Part shown: positions 15,183-20,496 of the stretch, in pieces
How the letters are laid out: the number at the start of each line of letters is the position of its first letter
Position numbering within the stretch: the first letter of the stretch is position 1
Virus record (IMG/VR): IMGVR_UViG_3300034375_010564
Span: 1-21,885 of that record
Strand: one strand, 5' to 3'
Length of the DNA: 21,885 nucleotides
Source: a virus
The notes under the pieces: model-generated
What the model was told of the DNA's origin: nothing
Seen by the model: the letters and a program-made list of their open reading frames with translations, nothing else
Databases searched by the model: none
Translations under genes and position numbers: made by a program

Positions 15183-15641
15183 ATGAATCTATCACCACAC
15201 TTTACGTATCAAGAATTTATTAAATCACAAACAGCATCAAGAATGGGAATCGAAAATGAACCGGATGATGCTCAGTTATATAATATGAAAATGCTTTGTA
15301 TTAATATATTAGAACCCATTAGAGAAGCTTTTGACAAACCTGTCATTATTACATCGGGTTTTCGAAGTGTGAAACTTTGTGAAGCCATTGGTTCTTCTCC
15401 TAAATCACAACACGCCAAAGGCGAAGCTGCGGACTTTGAAATTCCTGGTGTATCGAATAAAGAAGTGGCCGATTGGATACATGAAAATCTACCTTATGAC
15501 CAATTAATTTTAGAATTTTATGATGGCAAAGACCCCAACAGTGGTTGGATTCATTGTTCTCACAAAGGAAGTAATCGAGGTCAGTATTTAATTGCCACTA
15601 AAAATAAATTAGGTATTACAGAATACAGTCAAGCTATTTAA
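15183..15641 (+). CDS. M15 family zinc peptidase (probable endolysin)
   Basis: The 152-residue protein carries the M15 layout: ITSGFRS (residues 56-62), SQHAKGEAADF with zinc ligands His77 and Asp84, a probable catalytic Glu111 in LILEFYD, and GWIHCSH with the third ligand His124. Such enzymes cut peptidoglycan stem peptides (L-Ala-D-Glu or D-Ala-D-Ala type). There is no signal peptide, so export would need a holin or use in the virion. It is the last gene of the rightward structural block, and its stop overlaps the convergent helicase by 8 bases. No holin candidate was recognised next to it. Confidence 0.87.
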   Translation: MNLSPHFTYQEFIKSQTASRMGIENEPDDAQLYNMKMLCINILEPIREAFDKPVIITSGFRSVKLCEAIGSSPKSQHAKGEAADFEIPGVSNKEVADWIHENLPYDQLILEFYDGKDPNSGWIHCSHKGSNRGQYLIATKNKLGITEYSQAI

Positions 15642-17082
15642 TCCAATCGACTAATTCTTCACCCATAATCTCATTAGCAATATTAATTTTATTGCGCAGC
15701 GCTTTGACAATTCTTTCGTCCACGGTTTTCTCTGCAATTAAATCAATATAAGTCACCACATTCTTTTGACCGATACGATGCGCACGGTCTTCAGACTGTA
15801 ATCTTTTTTCTAAATCATAATTATTAGAATAATAAATCACGGTATTGGCTTCAGTCAACGTGATACCATAACCACCGGTTTGTGTATTCCCAACAAAGTA
15901 TCGAACTTCGGAGTCCGGGTCTTGAAATAATTTAATATTCTGTTGACGAGTTTCAGCATCGACATCACCATAATAACTAACCGTGGATCGTGAACCGTAT
16001 TTTTCATTTAAGGTTTCTACAATTTTTTCAATATCATAAATGTAATTCGCCCAAATAATAACCTTACCTTCAACTTCTTCTAAAATAGAAAGTAGCTCAG
16101 TTAATCGATTATTTTTTAAAGGGTTAATACTTTTATCATCAGCAGTAAAATGGCCACAAGTAATTTGATGTAGTCGCATCATTTGAGTAATCACATTCAT
16201 TGTGGTCATTGTTTTACCTTTTAATTCAGCCATCGCTGTGGCTTTCATTGAAATATAGGCTTGCACTTGCTCATCCGTTAACTCTACAGTTCTTCGAACA
16301 AAAGTCTTTTCTGGTAAATCCAAACAATCTTTCTTTAATACACGATAAGAAAAGTTTTGTAGTTTATCTGATAGTTCATCGAGTCTTCGATAAGAACCCA
16401 CAATTTGAACACGACGGCCGCCGAAGTTTCGCTCAATCATATGAGCATACCTGGAGCGAAATGCATAATAGGATTGAAATCCTAAATGCCATTCATCTAA
16501 AAAATAACACTGAGAATATAAGTCTAAAGGAGATTTCGTAACGGGCGATCCTGTTAGAATTCTACGATACTTTGCAAAATCCCTAAGTTTTAAAATACTT
16601 TTAGTTCTCTTGGCTGTCGGATTTTTGATTGTCGTAGACTCATCAATTCCTATCAAAGATTGCCCAACTGTATTGTTCAAAAATTTCTCAGCGAAGTCAA
16701 CACCTTTACTTGTTTGAAAGGCCTCTACATTCATAATAAATATCTTTAATTTGCCATCGTTTTCTGATAAACTATCTAACTCCCTCATTTTTGTTTGAGT
16801 TAAATTAGCTTCCCATAAAACCGTTGTATGTTCAATATGTTCCGGCAAGTGAACAGGTACTTCTATTTCATACCAATTTCGATACACACCTTTGGGTGCG
16901 ACAATAAGTGCCTTTTTTATTTCGCCTTTATCATACAATACGGCGATGTTATCAATTAATACTTTTGACTTACCGGTACCCATTTCCATAAATAAAGCAA
17001 ATGTTTCTTTGTCCCAGCAAGAACGCAAAGCTTTAAGCTGATGCTCATATGGCTTTGTCTTAAATTTATAATGCTCAATCAT
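15634..17082 (-). CDS. SNF2-type superfamily 2 helicase
   Basis: This is the only minus-strand gene. The 482-residue protein has YEHQLKAL (12-19), Walker A EMGTGKS (33-39), motif Ia VAPK, Walker B GIDEST (145-150), motif III LTGSP (176-180), a second RecA domain with IIWANY and TGGYGITLTEA, and motif VI QSEDRAHRIGQ (429-439), the SNF2 signature. These enzymes move along duplex DNA. The Walker B has DEST where DEAH is usual in this group. Its promoter overlaps the one for the rightward early genes. It may help replication start or branch migration; the exact job is unknown. Confidence 0.9.
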   Translation of the reverse strand: MIEHYKFKTKPYEHQLKALRSCWDKETFALFMEMGTGKSKVLIDNIAVLYDKGEIKKALIVAPKGVYRNWYEIEVPVHLPEHIEHTTVLWEANLTQTKMRELDSLSENDGKLKIFIMNVEAFQTSKGVDFAEKFLNNTVGQSLIGIDESTTIKNPTAKRTKSILKLRDFAKYRRILTGSPVTKSPLDLYSQCYFLDEWHLGFQSYYAFRSRYAHMIERNFGGRRVQIVGSYRRLDELSDKLQNFSYRVLKKDCLDLPEKTFVRRTVELTDEQVQAYISMKATAMAELKGKTMTTMNVITQMMRLHQITCGHFTADDKSINPLKNNRLTELLSILEEVEGKVIIWANYIYDIEKIVETLNEKYGSRSTVSYYGDVDAETRQQNIKLFQDPDSEVRYFVGNTQTGGYGITLTEANTVIYYSNNYDLEKRLQSEDRAHRIGQKNVVTYIDLIAEKTVDERIVKALRNKINIANEIMGEELVDWIK

Positions 17083-17095
17083 AGTAAATTCTTTC

Positions 17096-17132
17096 TTGAC
17101 AAAAATATAAACTTAACTATTTTATTTGTCAA
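17096..17132. promoter_or_regulatory. Overlapping divergent sigma70-like promoters in an 11-bp inverted repeat
   Basis: TTCTTGACAAA at 17094-17104 and TTTGTCAAGAA at 17125-17135 form a perfect inverted repeat. Each arm carries a consensus -35 (TTGACA 17096-17101 plus; its complement 17127-17132 for the minus strand). The minus promoter has TATATT at 17109-17104 with a 17-base spacer. The plus promoter has TATTTT at 17118-17123 with a 16-base spacer. Starts would lie near 17097 (minus) and 17130 (plus), giving leaders of about 15 bases. The two promoters share the same 37 bases, so they should exclude each other. The palindrome may also bind a regulator. Confidence 0.65.
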
Positions 17133-17145
17133 GAAGGAAGAAAAA

Positions 17146-17544
17146 ATGAAGAATAAAATATTTGAACTCTACAAAGACAAAAGCTTACAAGAGTTTTTAA
17201 AATTTAAAGAAGAAAACCCTGAAGAGACTTTTGTATATGTTCTTCAGCATCCCCCGGAAAATATTAATATTTTATCGGCTTCTAACTTTGGCTATTTAGT
17301 TATCTGTTTACCGCAGCTATCTCAAATAGTTTTTAGTACAGGTCCTTTTGTTTTTAAAATGAGAAAAAACTTACAGGACTTTCGTGCCCAGGATTATATT
17401 CTGTGCACCGGTGATCCCGCTGTCATTGGCTTATCCACAGCTATTGTGAGCGATATTACCACAGGTAGATTTAATCTCTTGAAATGGGATAAAAGAGAGT
17501 TTAAATATTACCCATTAAGTATTGACTTATACAAGAAAGGATAA
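17146..17544 (+). CDS. Conserved phage hypothetical protein (132 aa)
   Basis: I chose ATG 17146 because AAGAAGGAAG precedes it; an upstream in-frame ATG at 17041 would put 35 residues across the promoter and the opposite gene start. The 132-residue protein has a charged helical start (1-28), a hydrophobic beta core and YILCTGDPAVIGLSTAIVSD (about 85-104), followed by a FNLLKWDKREF strand. I recall this ending from unannotated marine phage proteins but know no function. It is the first rightward gene after the divergent promoter, so early expression is likely. Confidence 0.75.
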   Translation: MKNKIFELYKDKSLQEFLKFKEENPEETFVYVLQHPPENINILSASNFGYLVICLPQLSQIVFSTGPFVFKMRKNLQDFRAQDYILCTGDPAVIGLSTAIVSDITTGRFNLLKWDKREFKYYPLSIDLYKKG

Positions 17545-17548
17545 AGTA

Positions 17549-18115
17549 ATGAGCAATCTAATCGCTGAAATGGAACAAGACCAAGAAGGTTTTGCTTCTA
17601 AATCAGATAACATTAATCAACTAGCATCGAAGTGCCAAGAAATGTTGGACTTAGATGATCAGATAGCAGTACAGGAAAACCACCTCAAGGAACTACAACA
17701 ACGAAGAGATGTTATTAGTTCAGAAGTAATTCCTAGTTTGTTATCAGAACAAGGTTTAGCGTCATTGAAACTCCTAGACGGAAGTACTGTGGAAGTTTCT
17801 AAGAAGTACAGCTGCACCATGAAAGCAGATCCTGTTCTTAAAGAAAAGGCGCACAACTGGCTTCGCGAGAATGACTTAGGTGACATTATTAAAAACAATG
17901 TTGCTGTGAGTTTCGGCACTGGCGAGGATAACAAGGCTGAAGAATTTTTTAGCCTTGCCGCTCAAAGTGGTTACGAGCCCGAACAATCTCAAAAGGTTGA
18001 ACCGTCCACTTTAAGAGCGCTATTCAGAGAGCGTGTTCAAAACGGGTTGGACATGCCCTCTGATGTCTTTAATTTATTTATTAAAGACGAAACGAAAATA
18101 ACCCGTAAAAAATAA
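17549..18115 (+). CDS. Coiled-coil phage protein, possibly Gp157-like
   Basis: ATG 17549 follows AAAGGA; the earlier TTG at 17522 overlaps the previous gene and is less likely. The 188 residues begin with a helical pair (about 20-65, with QLASKCQEMLDLDDQIAV and LKELQQRRDVIS), followed by a small beta segment around LKLLDGSTVEVSKKYSCTM, and a winged-looking C-terminal half with VEPSTLRALFRER. A long coiled coil leading into a DNA-related fold recalls siphovirus Gp157-type proteins, but the match is weak. Between early genes and an SSB-like gene, a replication or recombination accessory role is plausible. No catalytic motif. Confidence 0.7.
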   Translation: MSNLIAEMEQDQEGFASKSDNINQLASKCQEMLDLDDQIAVQENHLKELQQRRDVISSEVIPSLLSEQGLASLKLLDGSTVEVSKKYSCTMKADPVLKEKAHNWLRENDLGDIIKNNVAVSFGTGEDNKAEEFFSLAAQSGYEPEQSQKVEPSTLRALFRERVQNGLDMPSDVFNLFIKDETKITRKK

Positions 18116-18128
18116 AGGAACGATAAAC

Positions 18129-18920
18129 ATGAACAAAGAAACGAGAACCGCGAATAGCGTAGACGTAAAAAAAGAAAGCCTACCGGCAATAAGCATGTTC
18201 GAAGAAGATGCTCATAAAGGTATGGAACAAATGGGAGGAGACGATTTTGCTCTTCCTTTCATTAGAATCTTGGGTGACTTATCTCCACAAGTAAAGAAAT
18301 CGAAAGCGGAATACATTGAAGGTGCAAGACCTGGAATGTTATTTAACACCGTCTCGAAAAAACTTTACGACGGAGAGAAGGGTATCAAGGTAGTACCTTG
18401 TTATTACAAAAGAGAATATGTGGAATGGACAGATAGAGGTGAAGGCTCCGGCGCACCTGTAGCAGTTCATCCGGCAAACACCCCTCTTTTAGGCCAAGTG
18501 CAAAGAGATGCGATGTATAAAGATAGATTACCGAATGGTAACTATTTAGAAAACACTGCATCTTATTTTGTGATTGTCATCGGAGACGATGGAGCGGCAG
18601 AAACTGCTTTGATTACCATGAAGTCTACAGGATTAAAAACAAGTAGACAGTGGAACTCGATGATTAGCAGTATCAAGATGCAAGGGAAAAACGGATTATT
18701 CACGCCGTCTATGTTTAGCCATGTATATCATCTAACAACAGTCGAAAGGTCCAACAACAAAGGAACATGGAACACATGGTCCGTTGCGAAGATAGGTCCG
18801 GTCGAAGATAGAGGACTCTATCAGCAAGCAAAAGAATTTGCTGAAAGTGTTTCTAAAGGTGACGTGCAAGCAAAACATAATAATGAAGAAGAAGAATCAG
18901 AAGATAAAGTTCCCTTTTAG
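18129..18920 (+). CDS. Probable ssDNA-binding/recombination accessory protein with SSB-like acidic tail
   Basis: The 263-residue protein starts at ATG 18129 with AAAGGA upstream. A disordered charged start (1-25) leads to LPFIRILGDLSPQVKKSKAE and an OB-like beta core (about 45-215; KVVPCYYKREYVEW, SYFVIVIGDDG, SHVYHLTTVE). The last 15 residues, EEEESEDKVPF, are acidic and end in Pro-Phe as in bacterial SSB (DDDIPF), the site that recruits replication partners. That tail and its place just before the primase suggest a phage SSB, although the core is not a textbook SSB fold by eye. T7 gp2.5-like or a RecT-linked accessory are alternatives. DNA binding is inferred. Confidence 0.65.
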   Translation: MNKETRTANSVDVKKESLPAISMFEEDAHKGMEQMGGDDFALPFIRILGDLSPQVKKSKAEYIEGARPGMLFNTVSKKLYDGEKGIKVVPCYYKREYVEWTDRGEGSGAPVAVHPANTPLLGQVQRDAMYKDRLPNGNYLENTASYFVIVIGDDGAAETALITMKSTGLKTSRQWNSMISSIKMQGKNGLFTPSMFSHVYHLTTVERSNNKGTWNTWSVAKIGPVEDRGLYQQAKEFAESVSKGDVQAKHNNEEEESEDKVPF

Positions 18921-18930
18921 GGTTGCTCAT

Positions 18931-18956
18931 GGTGGTGGGGTTTAAGGGCCCCACCA
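18931..18956. other. GC-rich hairpin between SSB-like and primase genes
   Basis: GTGGTGGGG (18931-18939) pairs perfectly with CCCCACCAC (18948-18956) around an 8-base loop, in an otherwise AT-rich 55-base gap. The bases after it on either strand are not a T-run, so it is not a standard intrinsic terminator. It may be an mRNA-stabilising or attenuating structure that tunes primase relative to the abundant SSB-like protein. Confidence 0.6.
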
Positions 18957-18975
18957 CAACAAAATAGAGGTGGAT

Positions 18976-20496
18976 ATGCAAGAAAGATTTAAAGAAATAT
19001 TTGAAGGTTTTAATGACGCTCACGGTTATACTTTTAAAACCGGGGAACGTGACAATCGCGGAAAAGAAAAAGTTAAATCCGGATTTGAAAGAAAAAAAGT
19101 TACTGATGAACTATGGCAACGTCATTTAGACGGTGAACTGCCAGCTCTAGGAATTATTCCTATTAATGAAAACAATCAATGTAAGTGGGGCTGTATTGAT
19201 ATCGATATCTATAACCTCGACCACAAAAAACTAATTCAACAGGTTCGCAAGAACAATCTGCCCCTATGTGTGTTCCGTTCGAAATCGGGCGGAGCACATG
19301 TCTTTTTATTTGTAAAAGAATTTGTTTCCGCAAAGTTAATGCGATTGAAACTCAAAGAGATTGCCAACCTCCTAGGTTATCATGATTCGGAAATCTTTCC
19401 GAAACAAGACGAGGTCTTGGTAAAAGAGGGACACCTCGGTAGCTTTTTAAATTTGCCTTATCATGGCGGCACTAAGAGTCTCCGTTATGCCTTAAATGAT
19501 AATGCTGATCCATTAGAATTAGATGAGTTTCTAGGCATCTATGATCAATATGCGCTAACCGAGGTTGCTCTCGATGAATTAAAAATTAACAAACCCAAAC
19601 TCAAAGAAGCTTTTGTTGATGGGCCTCCTTGCTTAAATAAACTAGCAGAAAGTGGATTTGGTGAGGGAAGTCGTAACAATGCTTTATTTAATATCGGAGT
19701 TTTCTATAAGAAAATGGATCCGGATAATTGGAAAGATTTATTAGAAGAAGCAAATCAAAACTACATGAATCCTCAACTCAAAGCTGCGGAAGTTTTGAAT
19801 GTCATTAAGTCTTTAGATAGAAAAGATTATGATAAGTATCGATGCAAAGATGCACCCATTAACTCCGTTTGTAATGCGAGTTTATGTAAAACAAAAAAGT
19901 ACGGTGTCGGTTTTGAAGAAGAGTCTTTACCGGAACTGAGAAATTTAACCAAGATGACTTCAACACCACCGGAATGGTTTTTAGAAGTCGACGGAAAAGT
20001 TATCAAATTAAAATCAGAAGAATTACATAGTCCTAATATGTTTGCTTTGTGTTGTCTTGATCAAGCTAATCTTGTGGTGCCGAATGTGGCACCACGTGAT
20101 TGGCGACAGGTTATTCTCAAAGAACTATTAGAAAACTTACAAGAGATTAAACCTTTGGAATCTTTAAATCATGACAATCAATTAGAAAATTTATTGTATG
20201 ACTTTACCGTGAATAGAGCTCAAGCAAGAGTGAAAGAAGATATGTTGAATAAAATGTCGTGGACCGAGGAAGACCATAGTCATTTTAGACTCGAAGACTT
20301 TTATAACTTTGCAAGAAGAAACAATTGGGAATTAGATAAAACCAAAACAGGTAATTTATTAAAACAATCTGAATTGTTTGTTGAAGAAGTTCGAATGACT
20401 TTAAAAAATCAAACACCAAGAATAATAAAAATTAAAGCAATGAAGAAAACAGAGCCTAGTATATCGGAGGTAAAATATGAACAAGACTATTATTAG
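18976..20496 (+). CDS. AEP-superfamily primase (TOTE-type primase domain)
   Basis: ATG 18976 has GAGGTGG just upstream; GTG 18970 lies inside that site. The 506-residue protein shows AEP motif I CIDIDIY with Asp75/Asp77, motif II SGGAH (104-108) and a later conserved segment EIFPKQ (139-144) with GSFLNLPY (155-162), typical of the primase found in TOTE conflict systems and many phages. A Cys cluster (about 291-309: C..., C-x4-C) looks zinc-binding, and a domain with PPEWFLEVDGKVIKL follows. No Walker A is present, so helicase activity must come from another gene. It would make primers for replication. The gene overlaps the zinc-ribbon gene by 20 bases. Confidence 0.82.
   Translation: MQERFKEIFEGFNDAHGYTFKTGERDNRGKEKVKSGFERKKVTDELWQRHLDGELPALGIIPINENNQCKWGCIDIDIYNLDHKKLIQQVRKNNLPLCVFRSKSGGAHVFLFVKEFVSAKLMRLKLKEIANLLGYHDSEIFPKQDEVLVKEGHLGSFLNLPYHGGTKSLRYALNDNADPLELDEFLGIYDQYALTEVALDELKINKPKLKEAFVDGPPCLNKLAESGFGEGSRNNALFNIGVFYKKMDPDNWKDLLEEANQNYMNPQLKAAEVLNVIKSLDRKDYDKYRCKDAPINSVCNASLCKTKKYGVGFEEESLPELRNLTKMTSTPPEWFLEVDGKVIKLKSEELHSPNMFALCCLDQANLVVPNVAPRDWRQVILKELLENLQEIKPLESLNHDNQLENLLYDFTVNRAQARVKEDMLNKMSWTEEDHSHFRLEDFYNFARRNNWELDKTKTGNLLKQSELFVEEVRMTLKNQTPRIIKIKAMKKTEPSISEVKYEQDYY

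Follow-up and report, generated by a model that had tools for sequence, protein, structure and literature searches.

A 63-bp gap between two divergent genes of a virus carries a perfect inverted repeat with a consensus TTGACA hexamer in each arm. This arrangement raises the question of whether the gap is a switch, an operator for a regulatory protein, or a pair of promoters that share the same DNA. The gap lies in a virus record of 21,885 bases, which was analysed over its whole length and is called the window here. Genes run rightward up to that of an M15 peptidase and are followed by the leftward gene of a SNF2-type helicase, whose ATG at 17082 faces the rightward ATG at 17146 of a gene for a gp32-like protein (Table 1). 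The phage is related to viruses of the marine bacterium Pelagibacter, and we infer its host from these relatives. We consider it probable that the gap holds an interlocked pair of sigma-70-type promoters that is read by host RNA polymerase, exclusive in each binding event, and that results in co-expression in a set ratio rather than in a switch.

Table 1. Genes and promoter elements around the helicase-gp32 junction of the window (positions within the 21,885 bases).
Feature	Position	Strand	Basis or remark
M15 peptidase	15183-15641	+	tail to tail with the leftward SNF2-type helicase
SNF2-type DNA helicase, downstream of the leftward promoter	15634-17082	-	PF00176 (E 1.2e-20), PF00271; phrog_62 DNA helicase
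Left arm of inverted repeat, TTCTTGACAAA	17093-17103	.	read directly from the sequence
-35 box of rightward promoter, TTGACA	17096-17101	+	promoter scan; kept in relatives
Predicted leftward start	17097	-	7 nt past the -10 box, from geometry
-10 box of leftward promoter, TATATT, 17-bp spacer	17104-17109	-	promoter scan
-10 box of rightward promoter, TATTTT, 16-bp spacer	17118-17123	+	promoter scan
Right arm of inverted repeat, TTTGTCAAGAA	17125-17135	.	read directly from the sequence
-35 box of leftward (helicase) promoter, TTGACA	17127-17132	-	promoter scan; kept in relatives
Predicted rightward start	17130	+	7 nt past the -10 box, from geometry
Pam3 gp32-like protein, gene 1 of rightward operon	17146-17544	+	PF23992 (E 4.2e-26)
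Pam3 gp33-like and gp34-like genes of rightward operon	17522-18115, 18129-18920	+	PF23984, PF23977
Primase, rightward operon	18970-20496	+	PF22548, PF08708, PF00580 (jointly with UvrD-type helicase)
UvrD-type helicase, rightward operon	20544 to record end (21884)	+	PF22548, PF08708, PF00580 (jointly with primase)

The original prediction had described an 11-bp perfect inverted repeat with two consensus TTGACA boxes, and direct reading of the sequence confirms it; the repeat starts at 17093, one base before the 17094 given there. Its arms, TTCTTGACAAA and TTTGTCAAGAA, are separated by 21 nt and grow to 15 nt at 93% complementarity (17089-17103 and 17125-17139). By our reading, they consist of the -35 boxes and the adjacent purine-rich ribosome-binding stretches. 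Both promoters show the hallmarks of sigma-70 recognition, namely a -35 box near TTGACA, a -10 box near TATAAT and a spacer of 16-18 bp. The leftward promoter (11 of 12 consensus matches) ties for best among the 29 promoter-like sites between 12000 and 21885; the rightward promoter has 10 of 12 matches, and its -10 box is weak. Each of the two points at an ORF, the helicase to the left and the gp32-like gene to the right. As had also been predicted, each -10 box adjoins the -35 box of the other promoter at a distance of 2-3 bp, and thereby lies inside the opposite spacer; the two -10 boxes are separate, with 8 bp between them. The predicted starts are about 33 bp apart and each falls within the opposite -35 box, an overlap that by geometry alone is that of a bidirectional promoter.

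The palindrome by itself proves little: if the arms may stand 8-40 nt apart, the window has 3 perfect inverted repeats of at least 11 bp and its dinucleotide shuffles have 0.54 on average, with one or more in 27 of 100 shuffles. The pattern TTGACA-N24-26-TGTCAA occurs once in the window and once in all 100 shuffles together, and the pair at 17093-17135 is the sole interlocked pair of the window with at least 9 of 12 matches in both promoters. Promoter-like sites as such do not exceed chance (29 versus a shuffle mean of 36.2 between 12000 and 21885). A single match therefore proves nothing, and the case rests on comparison.

For this comparison four sets of helicase relatives were taken from IMG/VR, each named by its query and not a strict clade: set W (80 loci; query: the helicase of the window), set D (query: the helicase of L081, a 58% relative), set H27 (query: Pelagibacter phage HTVC027P) and set H23 (query: HTVC023P). 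The helicase tree places L080 and L081, both of W, among D, and L079/L114 as well as L080/L110 are identical contigs counted in W and D. A usable helicase start was kept in 78 each of the 79 D, 80 H27 and 80 H23 loci, and two D loci were too short. Interlocked pairs were scored by their matches to TTGACA and TATAAT, with spacers of 16-18, an outer span of 34-40 and a position within 130 nt of the helicase start. A threshold of 8/12 was dropped as uninformative, H27 and H23 reaching 8 in 35 and 41 of their 78 loci, respectively.

With at least 9 of 12 matches in both promoters, the pair is found in 75 of the 80 W loci and 50 of 76 D loci, and is nearly absent from H27 (1 of 78) and H23 (0 of 78). 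Counted over distinct upstream regions, the numbers are 53/57 (W), 38/53 (D), 1/55 (H27) and 0/56 (H23); shuffles of these regions reach the same score in 5.8%, 3.5%, 3.0% and 4.0% of cases, respectively. At 10 of 12 or better, 41/57 W and 19/53 D regions retain the pair, with one region in H27 and none in H23, at a shuffle rate of 0.09% in W and D and of at most 0.13% overall. Away from the junction, 1.24 Mb of the same, partly redundant loci contain 89 sites at 9 and none at 10. Of the 58 distinct gaps between helicase and gp32 in set W, the window and the relative MW574966, a choice that is blind to the score, 51 contain TTGAC...GTCAA at a distance of 26-28 nt. The layout is conserved between helicase and replication operon. 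To this extent the original interpretation stands: there are divergent promoters on the same DNA, conserved at this junction. The switch and the operator that it had proposed do not follow from the data, as detailed below.

The members differ in which part of the promoters is kept. Among 33 W cores of span 37, five bases per -35 box are invariant, and the median identity between any two of the 25-nt spacers is 44%, in a profile whose cores were selected by a score that favours the boxes. The 38 passing D regions have a perfect -10 box (6/6) on the helicase side in 30 and on the other side in 33 cases, and a spacer of 17 in 29 and 37 cases, respectively; TATAAT is near-perfect both ways and the -35 boxes are variable (TTGACT, TTGATT, TTGCAT, TTGAAA etc.). 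Mean matches of the threshold-passing cores are 5.8 (-35) and 4.4 (-10) in W, and 4.4 and 5.8 in D. The quality of the -35 box falls as that of the -10 box rises (Spearman -0.28 in W, -0.38 in D), but this trade-off is partly an artefact of the score threshold and is not counted as evidence. The predicted starts are 33 bp apart in 42 of 43 D cores and 33-37 bp apart in 55 of 55 W cores. Fifteen of the 53 distinct D regions stay below 9/12: in eight a pair with scores of 8 and 9 occupies the usual position, in six a pair occurs only at a greater distance upstream, and L101 lacks one altogether. Under a strict rule (A at -11, T at -7) one or both promoters fail in most W members beyond the nearest relatives of the window; the failing -10 boxes often read TATATA or TATATG. 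In L113 and L112 of set D the partner gene is a shorter gp32 homologue.

These profiles bear on the reading that a single promoter is active and that the hexamers opposite it arose incidentally, from the AT-richness of the DNA and from the ribosome-binding sites of the two strands, which we regard as quite unlikely. The region is indeed AT-rich, and promoter-like sites are no more frequent in it than in shuffles. The AAGAA at the outer end of each arm falls within the purine-rich ribosome-binding stretch of the gene next to it, and many W members have a -10 box with just 4/6 matches, one side having 3 matches in 5 of the 51 gaps. However, both -35 boxes have stayed the same where the spacer between them has drifted, and the pair arises in only 3-6% of whole-region shuffles. 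If the -35 boxes are fixed and the spacer is shuffled, both -10 boxes reach at least 4/6 in 29% of shuffles, versus 46 of 51 real gaps. Moreover, both -10 boxes of D are near-perfect, and both flanking genes require a promoter in or near the 63-bp gap. That the palindrome marks something other than a promoter, for instance an origin or a site of recombination, is very improbable: its position at the start of the replication module and the AT-rich DNA would suit such a site, but the hexamers and their 16-18 bp spacings are those of sigma-70 promoters, the intervening sequence is free to change, and the palindrome is lost in most of D.

The same cores bear on the proposed operator for a phage regulator. 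Beyond the -35 hexamers the arms drift and are largely not conserved, which counts against an operator and not against promoters. Among 55 distinct W cores, 31 have a perfect arm of 6-7 bp, 10 have one of 9-10 bp, and in 14 the hexamers do not pair. The hexamers of D are non-complementary in 40 of 43 cores, for example TTGATT with TTGCTT or TTGAAA, and the symmetry of the arms is not maintained under change. Because the two -35 boxes vary independently in D, a protein that reads the dyad is unlikely, and two separate -35 boxes would allow such variation. An arrangement in which the arms bind the dimer of a phage regulator that shuts one or both promoters, or flips between them, is therefore unlikely in our view, despite the perfect 11-bp arms of the window. 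Two further observations would be in its favour: in other phages the same interlocked promoters stand beside KilA-N/Bro-N genes and weak Arc/ribbon-helix-helix matches, and the fold neighbours of gp32 include Csa3, a CRISPR-associated transcription factor (over the first 142 residues, by our reading the CARF part). On the other side, the genes that flank the pair encode a SNF2 helicase and gp32, the latter with an alpha/beta fold model, neither of them a recognisable DNA-binding regulator. For the relative MW574966, 36 proteins out of 86 annotated features were scanned, and transcription-factor families are absent from the best 25 of 29 Pfam and the best 25 of 50 PHROG families. A regulator encoded next to the promoters, of the pLS20 or P22 immI type, is not seen here; an unrecognised or distant regulator may exist. 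The composition of the junction points to two interlocked sigma-70-type promoters and not to a dyad operator.

How two such promoters would work together is suggested by their geometry. The predicted starts lie in each other's -35 boxes, and a polymerase at one promoter should therefore cover the other. For bidirectional promoters, steric constraints are described in parts of PMC12825309 as barring simultaneous polymerase binding; geometry and this precedent together suggest that the two promoters of the phage should be occupied exclusively. The relative HTVC027P encodes no RNA polymerase, and that of the host is said to be used throughout, according to PMC12753301, which covers an RNA-seq study of this phage in HTCC1062. 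Host RNA polymerase would thus read both promoters of the interlocked pair, and a polymerase bound at one would block the other for the duration of a binding event and then leave. The helicase unit and the gp32-33-34/primase/UvrD operon would be expressed together from one entry point, the ratio of their outputs being set by relative promoter strength, with no either-or decision.

The strengths of the two promoters were scored with a rough frequency matrix. Mean scores for the helicase side and the other side are 11.4 and 11.0 in W, and 11.9 and 12.8 in D; the helicase side is the stronger one in 26 of 56 W and 14 of 40 D members, and in the window (14.5 versus 11.7). The original prediction of a switch between helicase and replication genes loses its footing here: there is no recognisable flanking regulator, the promoters are about equal on average in the relatives, and both sides serve DNA replication. 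A bistable switch is not read into the locus, because it needs feedback and none is seen. Given promoters of similar mean strength, replication genes to either side and no recognisable regulator, the economical reading is that the two units are expressed jointly and in a set ratio. Across members the strengths of the two promoters are only weakly correlated in both W and D (Spearman 0.21 in each, not significant), and a tightly kept ratio therefore lacks support.

Overlapping divergent promoters are known in principle. The bidirectional promoters of E. coli and other prokaryotes resemble the phage pair in that pseudo-symmetrical DNA is bound by polymerase in two orientations, there with divergent RNAs as the outcome; if both RNAs are mRNAs, they often encode proteins with a functional link (Warman et al. 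2026, PMC12825309). They differ in that they share a -10 element and have starts most often 18, but also 10 or 23 bp apart, whereas the phage promoters have separate -10 boxes and predicted starts about 33 bp apart. The window pair does not have the shared -10 with starts 10, 18 or 23 bp apart, and H27 (21 bp, see below) comes closer. By its sequence the pair would be a variant of these known promoters, with predicted starts at about 33 bp rather than 10-23 bp. The five E. coli bidirectional promoters tested had a basal activity too low to compete unless one direction was raised (PMC12825309); in the phage both -35 boxes are consensus. How far competition is felt depends on occupancy, and two consensus -35 boxes should make for stronger promoters than the E. 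coli ones tested. The Pc/Pr promoters of pLS20 are likewise overlapping and divergent without joint occupancy by RNA polymerase, but are of very unequal strength and are governed by the regulator Rco, which represses one and activates the other, and by a DNA loop (PMC4207663, in part); none of this is seen in the phage pair.

Sigma-70 promoters have been noted for another pelagiphage, Skadi-1, in a passage of PMC10504331. The word 'promoter' is absent from the main text of PMC9599517 and PMC12753301, and no description of the interlocked helicase-gp32 pair was noticed among the top results from the open-licence literature. What appears to be new, as far as these results go, is the combination of separate -10 boxes with consensus -35 boxes at the ends, found group-wide and with no recognisable flanking regulator.

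Polymerase competition itself might be the selected function, setting the ratio of helicase to replication proteins and damping noise without a regulator, with evolution moving between start distances of 33 and 21 bp and the overlap being kept; we put this forward as doubtful but possible. If true, the lineage would have kept, and one subgroup perfected to 24/24 consensus, a two-way promoter in which one direction costs the other. The extent of steric competition at overlapping promoters in nature has been little studied. The phages provide a natural series, from W (weak -10, perfect -35) over D (the reverse) and six contigs with 24 of 24 matches to H27 (with a likely shared -10), and the pair lends itself to the study of polymerase competition, not of an on-off switch, on short fragments in vitro.

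The pair is dispensable in the wider phage group, because H23, H27 and DSL-LC04 do without it; the latter has no pair at threshold 9, though its helicase and gp32 genes are divergent. In cyanophage Pam3 the helicase and gp32-34 all run in one direction. A quick tree of 86 helicase rows (<90% identity), which has no bootstrap and long outgroup branches, requires five changes to explain presence of the pair. In this tree six reference phages were assigned their states manually, and four were later rescored at threshold 9 (MW574966 with the pair; HTVC027P, HTVC023P and DSL-LC04 without), the states of Pam3 and MW202510 being manual only. The H27 core, which lacks the pair, sits among pair-bearing rows (L073, L242 and four contigs from the consensus-pattern scan described below). 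Relatives in H27, including HTVC027P itself, have the same divergent helicase and gp32 genes and overlapping, opposed promoter-like elements, but with overlapping candidate -10 boxes. TTGACT-17-TATATA faces TTTACT-18-TATAAT/TATATT, and 41 of 55 distinct regions have a distance of 21 bp between the predicted starts, a count made at lax thresholds and without a shuffle control. The rightward -35 box, TTTACT, sits at the start codon of the helicase and could be a chance match. By its sequence, H27 seems to have another two-way promoter, near the type with a shared -10.

Four exceptions to the layout were examined. In L034 (145-aa ORF), L110 (170 aa) and L120 (150 aa) the helicase is separated from the pair by an additional gene, and the pair stays beside gp32; L066 has the same arrangement, as read from its sequence. 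The inserted genes (L034, 4126-4563; L110, 1833-2345; L120, 2062-2514) are not all of one kind, that of L034 being unlike the other two, which resemble each other. Matches as far as 700 nt upstream include chance ones, as seen in 3 of 53 H23 rows and 1 of 54 H27 rows.

A scan for one consensus promoter with an opposing TTGACA, leaving the opposing -10 free, returned at least 120 stretches, 80 of which were examined. Among these 80, an opposing -10 box of 5-6 matches is found at 13 sites, 11 of them between divergent ORFs. Counted per strand match in the same stretches, which include some near-identical phages, divergent ORFs surround 15 of 18 sites with a -10 of 5-6 matches versus 22 of 68 with a weaker one. 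With all 24 consensus positions fixed (span 38), 2.9 million viral contigs contain six stretches (L354, L361, L398, L403, L409 and L429), all six at the helicase-gp32 junction, and 84,980 bacterial and archaeal genomes contain two. The latter lie in records titled uncultured Ruminococcus and Herbivorax (L450, 3090-3127, and L451, 1464-1501, respectively); in L451 the ORF that ends just upstream of the pair is helicase-like and 26% identical to the window helicase.

Among the 80 stretches examined, interlocked consensus promoters also separate a small gene from a KilA-N/ORF11CD3 gene in L342 and L374, and from a Bro-N gene in L333. L348, L385 and L350 have identical cores; the Pfam content of the cassettes is that of L342, L374 and L333. 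These cassettes share the interlocked geometry and the divergent genes with the window, but differ in that one flanking gene is KilA-N/ORF11CD3 or Bro-N. Their partner genes give a weak Arc or ribbon-helix-helix match below the Pfam cut-off in two cases and none in one. A regulator may thus be at hand beside the interlocked pair in these phages. We take the divergent KilA-N/Bro-N cassettes to recall P22 immI (Pant/Pmnt).

The gp32-like protein itself was modelled with a pLDDT of 92 as an alpha/beta fold. A Foldseek search of the model against solved folds gave no match at E 0.001 or better. VIA-align lists 50 neighbours, and the first 44 of them are without exception, by title, of the CARF/SAVED type associated with CRISPR or CBASS, with Z values all <8 (SAVED of Cap5, 7.9; Csa3, 7.0, residues 1-142; also Cad1, ring nucleases and Can2). 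Similarity at this level may reflect only a common arrangement; the agreement of the neighbours suggests cyclic oligonucleotide binding or cutting as a candidate function. A role of gp32 as autoregulator was considered and set aside; the absence of HTH and RHH from the lists of neighbours excludes nothing.

Within the rightward operon, a G+C-rich hairpin (18932-18957, + strand) separates the gp34-like gene from the primase. Of 50 corresponding regions in relatives, 44 could be examined, and 43 of these have a hairpin of -10 kcal/mol or lower at this place, with differing sequences. A T-rich run follows in only four, and most are therefore not plain terminators. No Rfam match at gathering score was found in the window. 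The primase coding sequence contains a very stable hairpin of 14 pairs (19268-19299, + strand; -24.5 kcal/mol, z -5.7), after which comes CTTTTTATTT, and L002 has a hairpin resembling it at an almost equal distance from the helicase start.
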